From contig NZ_LVYV01000001.1 in the NCBI RefSeq assembly GCF_001618955.1, positions 1,061,501-1,125,500 on the forward strand: a DNA stretch of 64,000 bases, read 5' to 3'. Positions 1-8,943 of the stretch are shown here, piece after piece. The number at the start of each line of letters is the position of its first letter. The first letter of the stretch is position 1. The DNA comes from Tardiphaga robiniae. GTDB taxonomy: Bacteria; Pseudomonadota; Alphaproteobacteria; Rhizobiales; Xanthobacteraceae. The position numbers and the translations under genes are program-made. The notes below the pieces were generated by a model. It saw nothing but the letters and a program-made list of their open reading frames with translations, was not told the origin of the DNA and did not search any database.

Positions 1-419
1 GGGGCTTGCGTCACTCGCAGCGCTTCGCGCAGGAATGCCGCCTTCTTGGCGTTACGCTCGACGAGATGAACACGTCCGCCTGCGACATCACCCATGGCAC
101 AGGCCAGAACCACGCCGGGGAAACCTCCACCACTGCCGAAGTCGAGCCAGGTCTTCGCTGAAGGCGCGAGGTTCAGAAGCTGCAGCGAATCCGAGATGTG
201 ACGCGTCCAGAGATTTGGAAGCGTGGCCGGCGAAATCAGATTTGTCTTGGCCTGCCACTGGAGCAGGAGATCCACATAGCGATCGAGCCTGCCCTCCGTT
301 TCACGTGAAACAGGTGTCAGCCGCAGGGCCGCAGCCTTGTCGGCATCGAGCCGGGGTGCGGGAGCAGCTTGCTGGGATCGTTGGGCCATTGGATTGTCTG
401 AAAAGCTGTTGGGACCCAT
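1..419 (-). CDS. rsmG: 16S rRNA (guanine-N7) methyltransferase RsmG, partial (C-terminus beyond window)
   Basis: N-terminal about 139 codons of RsmG (GidB), which methylates N7 of G527 of 16S rRNA using SAM. The translation carries the family's SAM-binding glycine loop (LDFGSGGGFPG), followed by VHLVERNAKKAAFLRE, characteristic of GidB. ATG at 419 is the first start; an in-frame ATG at 389 is an alternative. The gene runs off the left edge. It lies downstream of mnmG on the same strand, the usual mnmE-mnmG-rsmG-parAB order. A parS-like site (297-312) lies inside the coding sequence and is read as VSRET near residue 36, just before the conserved part, where the protein tolerates variation. Confidence 0.93.
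   Translation of the reverse strand, partial: MGPNSFSDNPMAQRSQQAAPAPRLDADKAAALRLTPVSRETEGRLDRYVDLLLQWQAKTNLISPATLPNLWTRHISDSLQLLNLAPSAKTWLDFGSGGGFPGVVLACAMGDVAGGRVHLVERNAKKAAFLREALRVTQA
297..312. promoter_or_regulatory. parS-like ParB binding site 1 (15/16 match)
   Basis: Seen: cgTTTCACGTGAAACA, which differs from the 16-bp bacterial parS consensus TGTTTCACGTGAAACA only at the first base. It lies inside rsmG. ParB is known to nucleate on such sites to build the segregation complex. Three perfect copies lie within the next 3 kb, which makes chance very unlikely. Confidence 0.88.
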
Positions 420-491
420 CCATACTCTGAGTCCATTGCTGCCGCTATCAAATTGCCGGATTGAGGCGACGAATCCGGGCGGGGATTGCCG

Positions 492-940
492 ATGAATGAG
501 CGACCGACCTATCAGGAGGCCCTTCGACGCATCGGCCTGCTCGGCATCCTTGAACCGTTTGACCCGCATGTGGTCGGCACGCTGCCGCTCGACGTCGCCC
601 GATCCAACAGTGACATCGATATCGTCTGTTGCGCCGCCAATCTATCCGCGGCTGCCGGGCTGATCTGGAAGCACTTCGGCGAAACCGAGAGCTTCGCCAT
701 CTATCAATGGTCGGCCAAAGGCCGACCGGTGATCGCGACATTTGAAGCGTATGGATGGCCGTTCGAGATCTTCGTCAGCTCGACTCCCGTACAGGATCAA
801 CCCGGCTGGCGGCACTTCGAGGTCGAGAAGCGACTGCTGATCCTTATGCTGTCCTGTACAACTTGTTCGGCGCCTCTGATGACCAGCTGAATGCAGCTGA
901 GAGCGCAGGGGTTTGCAATCTAGAGGATTCAGGACAGTGA
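492..940 (+). pseudogene. DUF4269-family gene, inactivated by internal deletion/frameshift
   Basis: The first reading frame (ATG 492, stop at 890) matches the DUF4269 family: VVGTLPLDVARSNSDIDIVC is the nucleotidyltransferase-like GT..DSDLDI core, and the match runs to FEVEKRLL. The reading then falls into a meaningless tail. The expected C-terminal segment (DPYAVLYNLFGASDDQL, which family members show as GDPYxxLLxLxxxSDxxL) is present in the +1-shifted frame ending at 940. The roughly 30 residues normally separating the two parts are missing, so a deletion of about 80-100 bp joined the ends out of frame. Judged a decayed gene; function of the family is unknown. A sequencing error alone would not explain the missing segment. 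Confidence 0.75.
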
Positions 941-1002
941 GTTGACCAGGATCAATGCGAGCGGGACGAGTCCGGCCTCCAATAAATCATCGTTGGAGGC
1001 AG

Positions 1003-1197
1003 ATGACCATGAATGTGATCGTACGGCTTTTCCTGATGCTGGCAGCACCTATCACTGCGCTATTCGTCTCGCGTGATGCACTCAATTTCGATGTGGTCCA
1101 GACAATCGTCGCCGTGATCCTCTTTACGGTGGCCGTCGCAGCTGTTGCCTTTTGGCCCCGCCGTCCAACGAAGCCATCTTCAACAGAGCCGCGTTGA
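1003..1197 (+). CDS. small membrane protein, 64 aa, unknown
   Basis: Not recognised as a named family. The chosen start ATG (1003) has a strong Shine-Dalgarno GGAGG at 995-999 with good spacing; a longer reading from 955 lacks one. The protein has two hydrophobic segments (about residues 3-18, IVRLFLMLAAPITALF, and 28-50, VVQTIVAVILFTVAVAAVAFW) and a basic/polar tail, so it probably sits in the inner membrane as a hairpin. It converges on mnmG, whose stop codon is only a few bases away. No partner genes suggest a role. Confidence 0.6.
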   Translation: MTMNVIVRLFLMLAAPITALFVSRDALNFDVVQTIVAVILFTVAVAAVAFWPRRPTKPSSTEPR

Positions 1198-1199
1198 TT

Positions 1200-3101
1200 T
1201 CAGCTTCCTGTTTCACGTGAAACAACCAGGTAGGCCCGGGCAGCCTTCGGCTTCCGCGCTTCGCGGCGAAGATAGGCCGCGAGAATGGCCAGCGCCGCCG
1301 GGGTCATACCATCCAGACGTCCCGCCTGCCCCACGGTATGTGGAAGCGCTGCCTTGAGCTTTGCCCGGGCCTCATTGGACAGTCCGGGGACCGCATCATA
1401 GTCGACATCCACCAGCGAGAGACCCTCGTCACGGCGGAAGGCCTCGACGTCAGCGGTCTGACGCTTCAGATAGACATCATATTTGGCATCGATCTCGATA
1501 TGAGTGCCGATCGCTGGGTCAATGGCCGACAATTCCGGCCAGATCCGGGTCACCGTGGCCCATTCGGTCTCTGGATAGGACAGGAGGTCGAAAGCAGTGC
1601 GACGCTGACCGTCGTGATTAAGCACCAGACCATGCTTCACCGCCCCGTTAGGAGTGATCGAAAGCGCCTGCGTGAGCGTCTTGCCGACGGCGAGGGCTTC
1701 CATCTTGGCGCCATGGCGGACCGAACGAGCGCTGCCGACACATCCCAAGCTGATACCCTTGTCGGTCAGGCGCTGATCGGCGTTGTCGGCACGCAGTGTG
1801 AGCCGGTATTCCGCCCGTGAGGTGAACATCCGATAGGGCTCGGTAATCCCGCGGGTGACCAGATCGTCGATCATCACGCCGAGATAGCCGTCAGCTCGGT
1901 CGAACACGGTCAACTGGCTACCGCTCGCTGCCAAAGCGGCATTCAGACCGGCGACGAGACCCTGGGCGGCGGCTTCTTCGTATCCTGTGGTGCCATTGAT
2001 CTGCCCGGCCAGAAACAGGCCCGCGATGCGCTTGGTCTGCAGGGTCGGATCGAGTTCGCGGGGATCGATATGGTCATATTCGATCGCATAGCCCGGGCGG
2101 ACCATTCGGACCCGCTCCAGACCGGGGATCGAGGCCAGGATCGCCACCTGAACCTCCTCGGGCAGTGAGGTCGAGATGCCGTTGGGATAGACCGTGGAGT
2201 CATCGAGGCCTTCCGGCTCCAGGAAGATCTGGTGGCCATCGCGATCGCCAAAGCGGACGATTTTGTCCTCGATAGACGGGCAATAACGGGGACCTGAACT
2301 CTTGATCTGACCGGAATACATCGGCGAACGATGCACATTGGCCCGGATCACCTCATGGGTCGCCGGTGTGGTGCGCGTAATGCCGCACTGGATCTGCGGA
2401 TTGGTGATCCGATCGGTCATGACCGAAAACGGCTCCGGCGGATCGTCGGCAGACTGCATCTCGACCCCGGCCCAGTCGATGGTGGTCCCATCGAGCCGCG
2501 GTGGCGTGCCGGTCTTGAGCCGTCCGAGGGTGAAGCCGACACCCTCGAAGGCCTTGGACAGGCCGAGTGCGGGAGCTTCATCGATCCGGCCGGCGGGCCA
2601 GTTCTTCTCGCCGAGATGGATCAACCCGCGCAGAAAGGTGCCAGTAGTGATGACCACTGATCCGGCAGAGAGTTCGCGGCCATCGGCAAGACGGATGCCG
2701 ATGACCCGGCCATTTGACATCAGCAGGTCGTCGGCCTCGCCCTCGATCACGCTCAGATTCTCGGTCGCCACGATCGCCGCCTGCATCGCTGCAGCATAAA
2801 GCTTGCGGTCCGCCTGGGTGCGCGGGCCACGAACGGCCGGGCCCTTCTTTCGGTTGAGCATGCGGAACTGGATGCCGCCGGCATCGGCCACGCGGCCCAT
2901 CAACCCGTCCAGCGCATCGACCTCGCGGACCAGATGGCCCTTGCCGAGACCGCCGATGGCAGGATTGCAGGACATCGCGCCAATGGTCGCGAACTCGTGC
3001 GTCACCAATGCAGTCCGCGCGCCCATGCGCGCAGCACCAGCTGCGGCCTCGCAGCCGGCATGACCTCCCCCGATTACGATAACGTCAAACTTGTCCTGCA
3101 T
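1200..3101 (-). CDS. mnmG: tRNA uridine-5-carboxymethylaminomethyl modification enzyme MnmG (GidA)
   Basis: FAD-dependent subunit of the MnmE-MnmG complex that builds the cmnm5 group on wobble U34 of several tRNAs. The N-terminus [20 protein letters not shown] is the classical GidA Rossmann dinucleotide site (GxGxxGxxxA), and the family signature [12 protein letters not shown] is present. At 633 aa from ATG 3101 it has normal family length. The open frame continues upstream to 3224, but only through two parS sites, so I reject the longer start. mnmE lies upstream on the same strand. The last codons (VSRETGS) contain a perfect parS site (1209-1224), so the C-terminal peptide is shaped by a DNA-binding site. 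Confidence 0.97.
1209..1224. promoter_or_regulatory. parS ParB binding site 2 (perfect)
   Basis: Perfect TGTTTCACGTGAAACA palindrome, located in the last codons of mnmG, where it is read on the minus strand as VSRET. Confidence 0.95.
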
Positions 3102-3155
3102 GGCCGCAGCTTTTAGCGCGGGTGCAGCCGGGATTGAAGAGAAATCCACAGGCAT

Positions 3156-3171
3156 TGTTTCACGTGAAACA
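3156..3171. promoter_or_regulatory. parS ParB binding site 3 (perfect)
   Basis: Perfect TGTTTCACGTGAAACA; the symmetry extends by one base pair on each side (ATTG...CAAT). It lies 55 bp upstream of the mnmG start codon. Confidence 0.96.
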
Positions 3172-3207
3172 ATGGATGCCCTCTGAAGAGGATCTGAGAG
3201 GCAGGAT

Positions 3208-3223
3208 TGTTTCACGTGAAACA
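3208..3223. promoter_or_regulatory. parS ParB binding site 4 (perfect)
   Basis: Perfect TGTTTCACGTGAAACA, 52 bp from site 3 measured start to start (about five helical turns, so both would face the same side of the DNA). Confidence 0.96.
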
Positions 3224-3419
3224 CAATCTGCTTTAGCCGTCATTGCGTGGCGCACGCCTGCAACGAATAGCCTGGTCTTTTGCGAGTCAGTCACCCGCAC
3301 TTGTGATCTTCTGGATTGCTTCGCCCCGGCCGCACTGACGACCGAAATTTCTCCGCATTTGCCATTCCGCACAAAAAATGATTTTATATTCATTATATTA
3401 AATAATGAATGAAGAAATA

Positions 3420-4754
3420 TTACTTACCTATACAAAAGTCCCGAAAGATGCTATCGAGGATATCTTCCACATCCACCCGCCCGAGCAAGCGCCCTAATTG
3501 CTGCGCTGCAGCACGCATATCCTCGGCAACGAATTCTTCGCCTTGCTCAGCCGACGCTGCAGCATGCTGCAGCAAATCCGACGTGCTGCGCAGCAAAAGA
3601 CGCTGCCGCTCCCGGGTAATCAGCCCGGCCTCGCCGCTCCCGAAGTATCGACCGGCAAAATCGACAAGCAGGGCCAACAGTTGTGCGAGGCCATCGCCGC
3701 GCTCTGCAGAGATGGCGATCAACAGGTCTGGCCCGGCCGAGGCAGTCTGGACCAGATCGACCTTGTTCCGGATCACCCAGACCGGTGTTTCAGATTCCGT
3801 CAGCCATTGTTCTGGATTGGACGCCTCTGCGCTGGAGTCGACCAGCCACAGGACCAGATCCGCTTCGGCCGCCCGAGCCCGCGCCCGGCGTACGCCCTCT
3901 TCCTCCACCGGATCTGCCGTCTCGCGAATGCCGGCCGTGTCGATGATCGTCACCGGATAACCGTCAAGATCGAGCTGCACCTCGATGACGTCCCGGGTGG
4001 TGCCGGCATGCGGTGATACAATTGCCACATCGCGCCGCGCCAACTGGTTCATCAACGTCGATTTCCCGACATTGGGCTGGCCGGCGATGGCCACCACCAG
4101 ACCGTCGCGCAACCGCTCGCTTCGACCCTGTGCCGCCAGCGCGTCCTCGATTTCCCGATGCAACGCCGATGCTTTCGCCAAAGCCGGCGCCAATAATTCG
4201 GCGGATACGTCGCCTTCGTCAGAAAAATCGATGCCGACTTCGACCAGGGCCAGCGCCTCGATGATCTGCTGTCGCCAATTCCGAGCCCTATCGCCAAGCA
4301 GTCCCTTGAGCTGCCGCAGCGCCTGGCGCCGCTGCCGGTCGGTATCGGCATGGATCAGATCATCAAGGCCTTCCGCCTCGGTCAGATCGAGCTTTCCGTT
4401 CTCGAACGCGCGACGGGTGAATTCGCCCGGCTCCGCCAGCCGCAAACCATCGATCGCCGCCAGCGCTCCAAACAAGGAAGCCAGTACAGCGCGTCCGCCA
4501 TGGATATGAAATTCGGCGACATCTTCCCCTGTCGCGCTCGCCGGCCCCGGAAACCACAGCACCACCGCATCGTCGATCGGGCCGAGCTTCTCGTCAAACA
4601 GCAGAACATGGGTCGCCAACCGCGGCGCCGGTAGTTTCTTCGCCAAACACTCCAAGACCTGTCCCGCCAGTGGACCCGACACGCGGACGATGGCGATCGC
4701 CGTCGGCGGACGGCCGGAGGACAATGCGTAGATCGTCTGGTCGCGTGGATGCAT
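3420..4754 (-). CDS. mnmE: tRNA modification GTPase MnmE (TrmE)
   Basis: GTPase partner of MnmG in wobble-uridine modification. The order is an N-terminal folate-binding TrmE domain (from [19 protein letters not shown]), a helical domain, and an inserted G domain near residue 220 with Walker [10 protein letters not shown], switch TTRD and DTAGIRE, then NKVD. It ends in the invariant FCIGK, whose cysteine is essential in the family. At 444 aa it is of normal length. Start ATG at 4754. It is separated from rho upstream by a terminator and a dispersed repeat, so it probably has its own promoter in the 4755-4900 stretch. Confidence 0.97.
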
Positions 4755-4911
4755 CGCCTATTTGCCGATGCGGATGACATGACGCAACGGGATTCTGAAG
4801 CTGACCATCCGTCCCCCGCTGCCATTCCGGGGCGAGCGCAGCGCCAGCTGCGAGCGAACCTTAGCCACTCCAATTGGGGTGGCTAAGAATCCCGGGATGT
4901 TCAAAACAGAT

Positions 4912-4970
4912 CGAGATTCCGGGTCTGCACTGCAGTCGGCTATGCCGACTTACGTGCATCCCGGAATGAC
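4912..4970 (-). repeat. 59-bp dispersed hairpin repeat, copy A
   Basis: The reverse complement matches 14370-14428 with about three mismatches. Each copy folds on itself: the outer arms ATTCCGGGaTGCAC and GTGCAgaCCCGGAAT pair, and an inner GTCGGC/GCCGAC hairpin closes the tip. This resembles the REP/BIME-type elements found between genes in rhizobial genomes. Here it lies between mnmE and rho. Confidence 0.8.
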
Positions 4971-4993
4971 AGTGAGTGGTGAACGACCGAAAC

Positions 4994-5024
4994 AAAAAAA
5001 CGCCGCTGCTTTCGCAACGGCGTT
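4994..5024 (-). terminator. factor-independent terminator of rho
   Basis: Read on the minus strand, AACGCCGTTGC pairs with GCAGCGGCGTT around a GAAA tetraloop, followed by a run of seven T. It starts 40 bp after the rho stop codon. Confidence 0.9.
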
Positions 5025-5063
5025 CTTGCAGTCCTGAAGCTGTTCGCTCGAACAGCCCGAACT

Positions 5064-6329
5064 TTACGTATTCATCGAATCGAAGAATTCCGAGTTGTTC
5101 TTGGTGTTGCGCAGCTTGTCGAGCAGGAAGTCGATGGCGTCCATGGTGCCCATCGGATTGAGGATGCGGCGCAGCACGTACATCTTCTTGAGCAGTTGCG
5201 GATCGGTGATGAGCTCTTCCTTGCGCGTGCCCGAACGGGAGATGTCGATCGCCGGGAAGGTCCGCTTGTCCGAGACCTTGCGGTCCAGAATGAGTTCCGA
5301 GTTACCGGTGCCCTTGAATTCTTCGAAGATGACTTCGTCCATGCGCGAGCCGGTATCGACCAGCGCGGTGGCGATGATGGTCAGCGAACCACCTTCTTCC
5401 ACGTTACGGGCCGCACCGAAGAAACGCTTCGGACGCTGCAGCGCATTGGCATCAACGCCACCGGTCAGCACCTTGCCGGACGACGGGACCACCGTGTTGT
5501 AGGCACGGCCGAGACGGGTGATCGAATCCAGCAGGATGACCACGTCGCGACCGTGTTCGACCAGACGCTTGGCCTTCTCGATGACCATTTCAGCGACCTG
5601 GACGTGACGCACAGCCGGTTCGTCGAAGGTCGACGAGACGACTTCGCCCTTCACCGAACGCTGCATGTCGGTGACTTCTTCCGGACGTTCGTCGATCAAA
5701 AGAACGATCAGATAGCATTCCGGATGATTCGCCGTGATCGAATGCGCGATGTTCTGCATCAGCACGGTCTTACCCGTACGCGGCGGCGCGACGATCAGTG
5801 CGCGCTGGCCCTTGCCGATCGGCGCGACGATGTCGATGACACGCGCGGAGAGATCGCGGCGGGTCGAATCTTCCAGCTCGAGGCGGAAGCGCTGATCCGG
5901 GAATAGCGGGGTGAGGTTGTCGAAATTGACCTTGTGCTTCGACTTCTCGGGATCCTCGAAGTTGAGCGTATTGACCTTCAGCAGCGCAAAATAGCGTTCG
6001 CCTTCCTTCGGGCTGCGAATGTGGCCTTCGACGGTGTCGCCGGTGCGCAAGCCGAAGCGGCGGATCTGCGACGGCGAGACGTAGATGTCGTCCGGGCCCG
6101 GCAGGTAGTTCGCATCGGGCGACCGCAAGAAGCCGAAGCCGTCGGAGAGAACCTCGACGACGCCTTCGCCGATGATGTCGGTTTCCTTGATCGCCAGCTG
6201 CTTCAAGCTTGCGAACATCAGCTCCTGCTTGCGCATGGTGCTGGCATTTTCGACCCCGAGCTCTTCCGCAAACGAGACAAGCTCGGCTGGCGTCTTGGCC
6301 TTGAGGTCCTGGAGTTTCATTTCCCGCAT
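5064..6329 (-). CDS. rho: transcription termination factor Rho
   Basis: Hexameric RNA-dependent ATPase/helicase that ends transcription. An N-terminal Rho helical domain ([34 protein letters not shown]) precedes the RNA-binding cold-shock domain ([35 protein letters not shown]). The ATPase core has Walker A near residue 180 (PPRTGKT), Walker B ([16 protein letters not shown]) and the Q/R loops. At 421 aa it is full length. ATG 6329 (MREMKLQ) is taken because the MRE- start is usual in related rhizobia; ATG 6320 (MKLQ) is possible. hemJ lies upstream with a 274-bp leader that could hold a rho promoter and autoregulatory leader. Confidence 0.97.
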
Positions 6330-6603
6330 TGGGAGGTGTCCTGTGGAAAGTCGGGGAGGGAGCGCGAGGTGGCCGAGACGGATGCGGACGCTGCAAAAGA
6401 TCAGGAAAGTCCGCAGGTCTCTGGTCAGGAAGTCTTGAGCGAGGAAGGTGCTGAAGGGGCTTCAAACCTGATGCGGTGGCCGGTTCAAAAAGAAAAACCG
6501 GTGCAAACCACATCCGCCTGCGTGGGGTGGGATGACGCGAATATAGAAAATCGCAGGGTGTCGCGCAAGGAGCCGAAACGGCGGTTGTGATGAGAAATTT
6601 GGC

Positions 6604-7026
6604 CTAGAACGGCTTCACGATCACCAAAATCACGATCAGGATCATCAAAACGGTCGGTACCTCGTTGATAATTCGATAGAATTTCGAATTCCGCGTATTT
6701 TTGTCCTGAGCAAAATCACGGACCCGGGCACTCAGGAAGCCATGAACGCCGGACATCAGCAGCACCAGCGTCAGTTTGGCGTGAAACCATCCTGAACTGA
6801 ACCAGTGACCGGCCCAGGCGAGATACAGGCCGAGGATCCAGGTGGCGATCATCGCCGGATTGATGATCGCCTTGAGCAGGCGACGCTCCATCACCTTGAA
6901 GGTTTCGGATTGCTTCGAGCCGATCTCCGCATCGCAGTGATAGACGAACAGTCGCGGCAGATAGAGCATGCCCGCCATCCACGAGATGACGGCGATCACA
7001 TGCAACGCCTTGGCCCATTCATACAT
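6604..7026 (-). CDS. hemJ: protoporphyrinogen IX oxidase HemJ (UPF0093 membrane protein)
   Basis: 140-aa inner-membrane protein of the HemJ family, which oxidises protoporphyrinogen IX in haem synthesis in alphaproteobacteria that lack HemG/HemY. Visible: the N-terminal conserved His in WAKALHVIAVISWMAGMLYLPRLFVYH, basic KVMERRLLKAI, and four hydrophobic segments (about residues 8-26, 58-75, 82-98 and 120-139). Conserved histidines and the LKAIINPAM segment fit the family. It is the first gene left of the presumed origin and is transcribed away from it toward rho. In many relatives hemE sits here; it is absent from this window. Confidence 0.93.
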   Translation of the reverse strand: MYEWAKALHVIAVISWMAGMLYLPRLFVYHCDAEIGSKQSETFKVMERRLLKAIINPAMIATWILGLYLAWAGHWFSSGWFHAKLTLVLLMSGVHGFLSARVRDFAQDKNTRNSKFYRIINEVPTVLMILIVILVIVKPF

Positions 7027-7495
7027 TCGAAAGTTCTTTCCAGCATCACTGCGTCACATCGCACTTGCTGAGACCGGAACATTTCACCGGAAAGCCGCGT
7101 TGCAGGACACGCCGATACAGAGCGGATCACCGCACTATCCGCAAGCCATCCTTCTCTTAAATAATATTTATAGAATCTTAGGTTTGAGTCTAAGTGACAG
7201 TGGATTTCAGCCGCCCAAAACAATCCCGGAACTGTCCCACGCTTATGCACATCCCCGCGTGATTTTCCGACAGCCGATCGCATGCAAGTTCGATATGCAG
7301 CGCAAAGGCTTACCGTCGCCGTGCACTGGATTATCCCAAGACAAACCTGGATAACCCCATTATCATTCCAGGCAGCCTCAGAGTTTTTCCTCTTCATGAG
7401 GCCTGTGAAGAAAAAACCGAGTTATCCCGGGCCCGCAGCGGTGGTGGTCGATATCCCGGAAAAGCTCCACAGAGATTCACAGGACATACACGACC
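7027..7495. other. oriC: probable chromosomal replication origin (oriC)
   Basis: 469 bp without a gene between hemJ and ppsR, both transcribed outward. Seen: an AT-rich stretch at 7152-7197 (unwinding candidate); DnaA-box-like sequences TTATGCACA (7243-7251, +), TTATCCCAA (7331-7339, +), TTATCCAGG (7346-7354, -) and TTATCCCGG (7422-7430, +); GANTC methylation sites at 7173, 7186 and 7474; and TTAA-N7-TTAT at 7157-7171, one base from a CtrA site. Known: the Caulobacter origin lies upstream of the homologous run ppsR (CC0001)-maf-aroE-coaE-dnaQ, next to hemE. parS sites 4-7 kb away fit as well. Not proven: no box is a perfect TTATCCACA. Confidence 0.78.
7157..7171 (+). promoter_or_regulatory. 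CtrA-like motif in the presumed origin
   Basis: TTAA-ATAATAT-TTAT matches the CtrA consensus TTAA-N7-TTAA in 7 of 8 defined bases, inside the AT-rich part of the presumed origin. CtrA is known to repress the Caulobacter origin. AT-rich sequence makes a chance match plausible. Confidence 0.4.
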
Positions 7496-8338
7496 ATGGT
7501 GCCCACCACCGGCAGCTATTTTCATCTTCATCTGGTCTCCGATTCGACTGGTGAGACATTGATCACCGTGGCCCGCGCCGTCGCTGCGCAATATGCGAAT
7601 GTCACGCCGGTCGAGCATGTCTATCCTCTGGTCCGCAGCCAGAAACAACTCGATCGCGTGCTCTCCGAAATAGAGGAAGCGCCCGGCATTGTTCTCTTTA
7701 CGCTGCTGGAAAAAGATCTCGTCGGCCGACTGGAAGCCAAGTGCCAGGAGATCAACAGCCCGAGCCTGTCGATCATCGGGCCGGTGATGCAGCTCTTTCA
7801 GGCCTATCTCGGTGCGTCGACCACCGGTCGCGTCGGCGCGCAGCACACGCTCAATGCCGAATATTTCAAACGTATCGACGCGCTGAATTATTCGATGATG
7901 CATGACGATGGCCAGCATGTGGAAGGCCTCGAAGAAGCGGACGTGGTTCTCGTCGGCGTATCGCGCACGTCGAAGACGCCAACCTCGATCTATCTTGCCA
8001 ATCGTGGTGTGCGCACGGCCAATGTGCCGCTCGTCCCCGGCATCCCCATTCCCCATCAGCTTGAGACGTTGAAAAATCCGCTGGTGGTCAGCCTGCACGC
8101 GACGCCGGAGCGCTTGATTCAGATCCGCCAGAACCGGCTTCTGAGCATTGGCAGCGATACGACTAATGACGAATACATCGATCGCCAGTCAGTCACCGAT
8201 GAAGTGACATATGCGCGCAAGCTCAGCGCCAGATATGGCTGGGCCCTGCTGGAAGTGACACGTCGCTCCATCGAGGAAACCGCGGCAGCCATCATGAAAC
8301 TGCTGGCCGATCGCCAGCGTCAGAGGATGTCCGAATGA
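7496..8338 (+). CDS. ppsR: pyruvate,phosphate dikinase regulatory protein (DUF299 kinase/pyrophosphorylase)
   Basis: Bifunctional serine/threonine kinase and Pi-dependent pyrophosphorylase that switches PPDK or PEP synthetase off and on. The 280-aa protein begins with the family's [13 protein letters not shown] and has its P-loop-like [18 protein letters not shown] at residues 154-171. Start ATG 7496. This is the homologue of Caulobacter CC0001 (Rickettsia RP001), the gene that flanks the origin there, which is the main reason for calling the adjacent gap oriC. No PPDK gene is in the window. It overlaps maf by four bases (ATGA), so the two are translationally coupled. Confidence 0.92.
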
Positions 8339-8943
8339 CCATTTGGTGCGGCGTGCAACCGCTGATCCTGGCGTCGCAGAGTTTGGCGCGTCGTGAGTTG
8401 CTGGCGAATGCTGGCATTACGTTTGATGCGGTGCCTGCAGATATCGACGAGCGCGGCATCCAGCAGAAATCCGGGTTGAAGGCGCCGGGCGAGATCGCAG
8501 CCTTGCTCGCCGAGCGGAAGGCAGCCTTTATCTCGCTGCGTCATCCCGGTCGCTATGTTCTTGGCGCCGATCAAATCCTGGCGCTGGGCGACCGGATGTT
8601 CAGCAAACCCGTCGGACGCGAACAGGCGGCCGAACAACTTGCGATCCTCGCCGGCCGGACCCACGAATTGCACTCAGCGCTTGCCGTCGTTTGCGATGGC
8701 GCGACGTTGTTCTCTAATGTTTCCGTGGCGCATATGACCATGCGCAAGCTGGATGATGTGGCGATCAACGCCTATCTGGACGCTGCGGGCGACAAGGTGA
8801 TGACGAGTGTTGGCGCCTATCAGCTCGAAGGTCTGGGTGTGCATCTGTTCGAGCTGATCGAAGGCGATCACTTCACCATTCTAGGTCTGCCACTACTGCC
8901 GCTGCTGAGTTTCCTGCGCGGCGAAGAGATGATCGCGATCTGA
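8335..8943 (+). CDS. maf: Maf-like nucleoside triphosphate pyrophosphatase
   Basis: 202-aa Maf/HAM1-superfamily enzyme that hydrolyses non-canonical or modified NTPs to NMP plus pyrophosphate. Seen: the start motif [14 protein letters not shown] (family SxSxxR), GADQIL in place of the more common ADTxV with the conserved aspartate kept, the KP motif SKPVGREQA and the C-terminal [28 protein letters not shown]. Start ATG 8335 overlaps the ppsR stop. Many alphaproteobacteria have aroE next; here coaE follows directly after 16 bp. Confidence 0.9.

Follow-up and report, generated by a model that had tools for sequence, protein, structure and literature searches.

The closest described counterpart of the locus studied here is Cori of Caulobacter crescentus, which is a gap of ~400 bp between hemE and CC_0001 (ppsR/COG1806) with an AT-rich segment, mostly weak DnaA boxes and five CtrA sites, and with parS within about 8 kb. 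In Hyphomonas, marker frequency peaks near hemE, with parAB ~7 kb away (PMC6650430, excerpt). For ten Bradyrhizobiaceae genomes, Ori-Finder (2008) provided a different rule, in which the DnaA box is TGTTTCACG and the origins lie beside gidA together with the palindrome TGTTTCACGTGAAACA (PMC2275245, excerpt), and this rule was reused for Oligotropha OM5 (PMC3091675, excerpt). Ori-Finder was also applied in a Bradyrhizobium Lb8 paper, the examined text of which does not name the box (PMC7020250, excerpt), and the main text on Ori-Finder 2022 names neither the family nor the box (PMC10225481). The predictions are deposited in DoriC (PMC10225481, excerpt), and, according to a general remark in a 2026 paper, the true origin differs from the DoriC one in some cases (PMC13342612, excerpt).

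The DNA analyzed here is a stretch of 64,000 nucleotides (hereafter the window; C1:1061501-1125500) from a 6.36-Mb draft genome in 56 contigs. The genome, that of a soil bacterium with Bradyrhizobium among its relatives, is Tardiphaga-like: the top PpsR matches among the best 80 of 359 relatives, each with 99% identity, were Tardiphaga sp. P9-11, Tardiphaga robiniae and Bradyrhizobium sp. NFR13, and the family of Tardiphaga is Nitrobacteraceae. As the preliminary description had correctly noted, hemJ (start at 7026, minus strand) and ppsR (start at 7496, plus strand) are transcribed outward from a gap, which is 469 bp long. We conclude that this gap is very probably the chromosomal oriC, a counterpart of the Caulobacter-type hemE-ppsR origin after relocation of hemE. 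The origin had already been proposed in the preliminary description, and this reading, drawn from sequence, is now supported by a skew switch in this genome and in that of Bradyrhizobium sp. BTAi1, the par cluster, synteny, conserved boxes and a position on the ppsR side equivalent to that of hemE-ppsR origins. The principal features are as follows.

7027..7495, no strand: hemJ-ppsR gap, predicted chromosomal oriC (skew, synteny, box excess, conservation)
6604..7026, minus strand: hemJ, left flank, with transcription directed outward (TIGR00701)
7496..8338, plus strand: ppsR (COG1806/DUF299 type), right flank (NCBIfam PpsR-type regulator; counterpart of Caulobacter CC_0001 by family)
297..3223, no strand: four distinct parS palindromes, ParB centromere and site of the Ori-Finder rule (TGTTTCACGTGAAAC matches)

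To the left of the gap, mnmG, mnmE, rho and hemJ are all encoded on the minus strand, whereas ppsR, maf, coaE and dnaQ follow on the plus strand to its right; parB and parA (named by eye from their sequences) lie just left of the window, beyond mnmG. HemJ, the PpsR-type regulator, CoaE, DnaQ, Rho, MnmG and MnmE all scored above the curated NCBIfam cut-offs, while the NCBIfam match of Maf scored under its own. Divergent hemJ and ppsR surround a gap of 411-603 bp in 79 of the 80 relatives kept, the exception being a contig that ends before hemJ. This relative was left out of the gap alignment, which has 80 rows including the window and in which the 469-bp origin candidate is aligned with equivalents from Bradyrhizobium, Rhodopseudomonas, Afipia and Nitrobacter records. 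The locus shares with Cori the position beside ppsR, the AT-rich segment, the mostly weak DnaA boxes and the nearby parS, but its other neighbor is hemJ, it has no conserved CtrA site and, unlike in Cori, a GANTC doublet is conserved in its AT-rich segment. On one side the boundary gene is thus ppsR, as in Caulobacter-type origins, whereas on the other side hemJ takes the place of hemE, which is located elsewhere.

Two surveys bear on the missing hemE. In the order-level one (ppsR match in 79 of 91 genomes, 30 loci read), hemE was the divergent neighbor of ppsR in 28 of 30 loci, over approximate distances of about 301-584 bp. In the family-level one (ppsR match in 48 of 48 genomes, 30 loci read, two of them common to both surveys), the nearest to ppsR among hemE, hemJ and rho was hemE in 25 loci, hemJ in three and rho in one. 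The remaining family locus belongs to a one-contig genome that begins 422 bp upstream of ppsR, as if the circle had been cut at the gap. In our genome hemE lies on contig C23. Its position is 2.27 Mb in BTAi1 and 3.95 Mb in R. palustris JSC-3b, where the gap is near 3.2 Mb. Most simply, the gap would be an ancestral hemE-ppsR origin from which hemE has since moved away. The hemE-ppsR gaps of other Hyphomicrobiales have the same position and divergent orientation beside ppsR, yet no sequence similarity to our group was detected with a family gap profile: it was searched against 30 order-level upstream regions, 17 samples of our genome, 40 samples of BTAi1 and the window, and it matched only the window, the BTAi1 origin sample and one further locus (L156), with no match in hemE-ppsR gaps of other families. 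In one locus, the relocated hemE faces away from a frame that by eye resembles coproporphyrinogen oxidase hemF, and hemE may thus have been relocated to a neighborhood of heme genes.

The large-scale position of the gap was assessed by GC skew. Among the unmasked 10-kb pieces sampled on the left side of the window, 27 of 28 had negative values (one piece half masked as N was omitted), and nine of ten 10-kb pieces from 1,071,501 rightwards had positive ones, while the 10 kb containing both the gap and the mnmG region had a skew of -0.011. The preliminary description expected the skew minimum at the gap; the negative-to-positive switch does fall here, but its resolution is several kb only, and the cumulative minimum (220 contiguous kb) lies at window position 4682 in a flat basin, between the gap and the parS cluster, so that skew is unable to choose between these two. 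For the complete 8.26-Mb chromosome of BTAi1 (40 samples of 20 kb), the best two-arm fit, with arms of +0.0168 and -0.0170, placed the origin between samples centered at 160,001 and 217,001 and the terminus almost opposite, at 4.14-4.35 Mb; the next-best fit placed the origin between 10,001 and 160,001. The hemJ-ppsR gap of BTAi1 is at 165,173-165,585 and its parS sites are at 169,308-171,408. When TGTTTCACGTGAAAC was searched with up to one mismatch, its sole matches in our draft genome were four parS sites in the window (~297, 1209, 3156 and 3208), 3.8-6.7 kb from the gap, in agreement with the 4-7 kb previously given. An origin at dnaA is a common arrangement outside alphaproteobacteria. 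Here it has a next to negligible probability, since the sole dnaA found (C1:824,035) is ~245 kb left of the gap, inside the negative-skew arm, and no parS was found at dnaA in the same genome search.

Within the gap, the following elements were recognized.

7148..7197, no strand: 50-bp segment of lowest stability in the gap, candidate DNA unwinding element (nearest-neighbor stability)
7173..7190, plus strand: GANTC doublet (GAATC, 8 bases, GAGTC) within the AT-rich segment, CcrM-type methylation sites (alignment)
7243..7251, plus strand: DnaA-box-like TTATGCACA, commonest in relatives as TTGTTCACA (alignment; TTNTNCACA in 56/80 rows, CACA core in 76)
7331..7336, plus strand: TTATCC core, partly conserved (TTAT in 69/80 rows, TTATCC in 16/80)
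7346..7354, minus strand: TTATCCAGG with the third TTATCC core (7349-7354), not conserved (4/80 rows)
7404..7412, minus strand: DnaA-box-like TTCTTCACA, conserved (plus-strand TGTGNANAA in 74/80 rows)
7422..7427, plus strand: TTATCC core, conserved (62/80 rows)
7462..7481, plus strand: weak CCACA and TCACA cores adjoining ppsR, conserved (alignment)

The AT-rich segment and the box at 7243 noted in the preliminary description are both present, the former coinciding with a 50-bp segment so unstable by computation that 0.016% of the positions sampled were equally or less stable, and the latter conserved in position. All three TTATCC cores that it listed exist as well, although only the one at 7422 is well conserved, and the conserved reverse box at 7404 had escaped it. 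Of 1682 windows, each 469 bp long and together covering 400 kb of sampled sequence, two contained at least three TTATCC cores, and both of these overlap the gap (Markov P = 0.001). The DnaA boxes form a cluster but are mostly imperfect, with only one exact TTATNCACA; allowing at most one mismatch, the 80 gaps contained on average 2.14 copies of TTATNCACA versus 0.26 in shuffles. Over the whole window such one-mismatch sites showed no excess (8 versus 14.9 expected), and the exact TTATNCACA count of the entire genome was uninformative (28 matches versus 44 for the reversed pattern). The motif TTNTNCACA, which was picked after inspection of the alignment, was repeated (two copies or more) in 64 of the 80 gaps versus one of 1522 other windows taken from these loci. 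A by-eye search for DnaA-trio elements returned nothing convincing. The DnaA protein of this genome retains the GGRDHTTV signature and its domain IV aligns with 1j1v, which we take to be the E. coli DnaA entry; it should therefore read TTATNCACA-like boxes.

The hemJ-ppsR gap is also conserved, with 70 of its 469 columns at least 95% identical across the 80 rows, whereas no column reached 95% in the mnmE-rho gap (0/309, 63 loci). The adjoining rho-hemJ gap is conserved at least as strongly (76/274 columns at 95%, 74 loci), and the origin cannot therefore be recognized by conservation alone. This fact, together with the need of divergent genes for promoters, would fit a purely regulatory region serving hemJ and ppsR, with the boxes acting as DnaA-controlled promoter sites. 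We consider such a reading highly improbable, because it leaves the skew switch, the nearby parS, the box excess and the order-level position beside ppsR unexplained.

The rule published with Ori-Finder would place the origin next to gidA/mnmG, ~4-7 kb to the left, with TGTTTCACG as a family-specific DnaA box and melting of the AT-rich DNA near 3350. It was published for ten Bradyrhizobiaceae genomes and, applied here, it points to the same neighborhood and the same skew switch, with the origin put at parS rather than 4-7 kb away in the hemJ-ppsR gap. Moreover, the skew basin spans the mnmG region, and the least stable DNA of the window, less stable than 7148-7197, is found near 3350 in the mnmG-mnmE gap (about 3225-3419). 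Nevertheless, we regard this placement as improbable. The palindrome TGTTTCACGTGAAACA was identified as a ParB site in Hyphomonas by EMSA (PMC6650430, excerpt), and a review lists it as parS for Hyphomonas and a near-identical one for Caulobacter (PMC7022226, excerpt). The DnaA of our genome keeps the usual box-reading signature, the mnmG-mnmE gap has no column at 95% (0/195; 40 usable of 81 loci), and no TTATNCACA within one mismatch was found in it. In addition, an origin between mnmG and mnmE would make mnmE, rho and hemJ lagging-strand genes, while a fourfold-site classifier, weak as it is (balanced accuracy of 0.76 in our genome and 0.71 in BTAi1), gave these three genes summed ln likelihood ratios for the leading strand of 6.5 and 1.8, respectively. 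Single genes disagree (mnmG of our genome gave -0.29), and the GC skew of BTAi1 rho (-0.174) and hemJ (-0.132) taken alone looks lagging, so strand composition modestly favors the hemJ-ppsR gap over the mnmG-mnmE gap. The parS cluster is linked to the origin but is probably not the origin itself, and these findings indicate that the published rule probably mistook a ParB centromere for an initiator site. Since Ori-Finder predictions are held in DoriC, such a misplacement would affect, within this group, ori-to-ter ratios, studies of strand bias and the numbering of genomes. No correction of the gidA placement was found in the literature searched, which omits most subscription journals, and one may exist elsewhere.

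What the preliminary description rightly recognized is thus an object of an ordinary kind, very probably a chromosomal origin, to which we add the argument against the published family placement, the account of the missing hemE and the conserved GANTC doublet. From the observed position, anatomy and conservation of the hemJ-ppsR gap, we infer that it could work as follows. DnaA would nucleate on the boxes at 7243 and 7404 and then spread over weak sites of the TTATCC and CACA types on the side of ppsR; the AT-rich segment at ~7148-7197 would melt, and helicase would be loaded for two forks, with the flanking genes running in the fork direction. The copied origin would be segregated by ParB acting on parS 4-7 kb to the left. 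The GANTC doublet would become hemimethylated on fork passage, which may couple initiation, or promoters close by, to the CcrM cycle.

GANTC sites are present in the gap at 7173, 7186 and 7474. The preliminary description counted these three as origin features; their number is not significant (as many are found in 10% of all windows and in 19% of those matched for AT content), but the pair at 7173 (GAATC) and 7186 (GAGTC) is conserved, with GANTC in the aligned position in 77 and 76 of the 80 rows, respectively. Nearly all relatives' gaps (78 of 79) contained a GANTC pair with a spacing of 6-9 bases (2.29 per kb), whereas elsewhere in the relatives' loci the same spacing was found at 13 sites (0.017 per kb). 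In the sampled genome GANTC is rarer than predicted from base composition (878 versus 1409). At 7173 the four bases that define the site hardly vary, whereas the free base does (A in 53 rows, T in 24), as expected if the methylation site itself were selected; at 7186 the free base is invariably G, and selection may therefore act there on the surrounding sequence too. A 17-mer around the second GANTC was found with at most two mismatches in 25 of 149 family genomes and in six of seven of the genus, a search too strict to measure its spread. Our genome has one match each to GcrA (PF07750) and to the RAMA domain (PF18755), the latter presumably the C-terminal domain of CcrM. The other motif put forward earlier, a near-CtrA site, does exist at 7157 as TTAA-N7-TTAA with one mismatch, but it is kept in only four of 80 aligned rows and is not supported as an origin feature; an exact CtrA site was present in none of the 80 gaps and a one-mismatch site in 22. 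In Caulobacter replication, CcrM acts only indirectly, according to a review (excerpt). The doublet may nevertheless control initiation, and its conservation makes such a link with CcrM methylation testable. A bolder version, in which Nitrobacteraceae origins have a lineage-specific GANTC-doublet switch in the melting segment and the CcrM state gates DnaA opening or re-initiation in place of Caulobacter's CtrA control, is conceivable, though we rather doubt it.

Finally, an Rfam scan of 4700-8500 yielded no match up to E = 1, so no family of that library explains the conservation in this region. The rho-hemJ intergenic stretch (window 6330-6603, minus strand, rho leader) contains a promoter-like block and a conserved leader, and its strong conservation possibly reflects Rho autoregulation.
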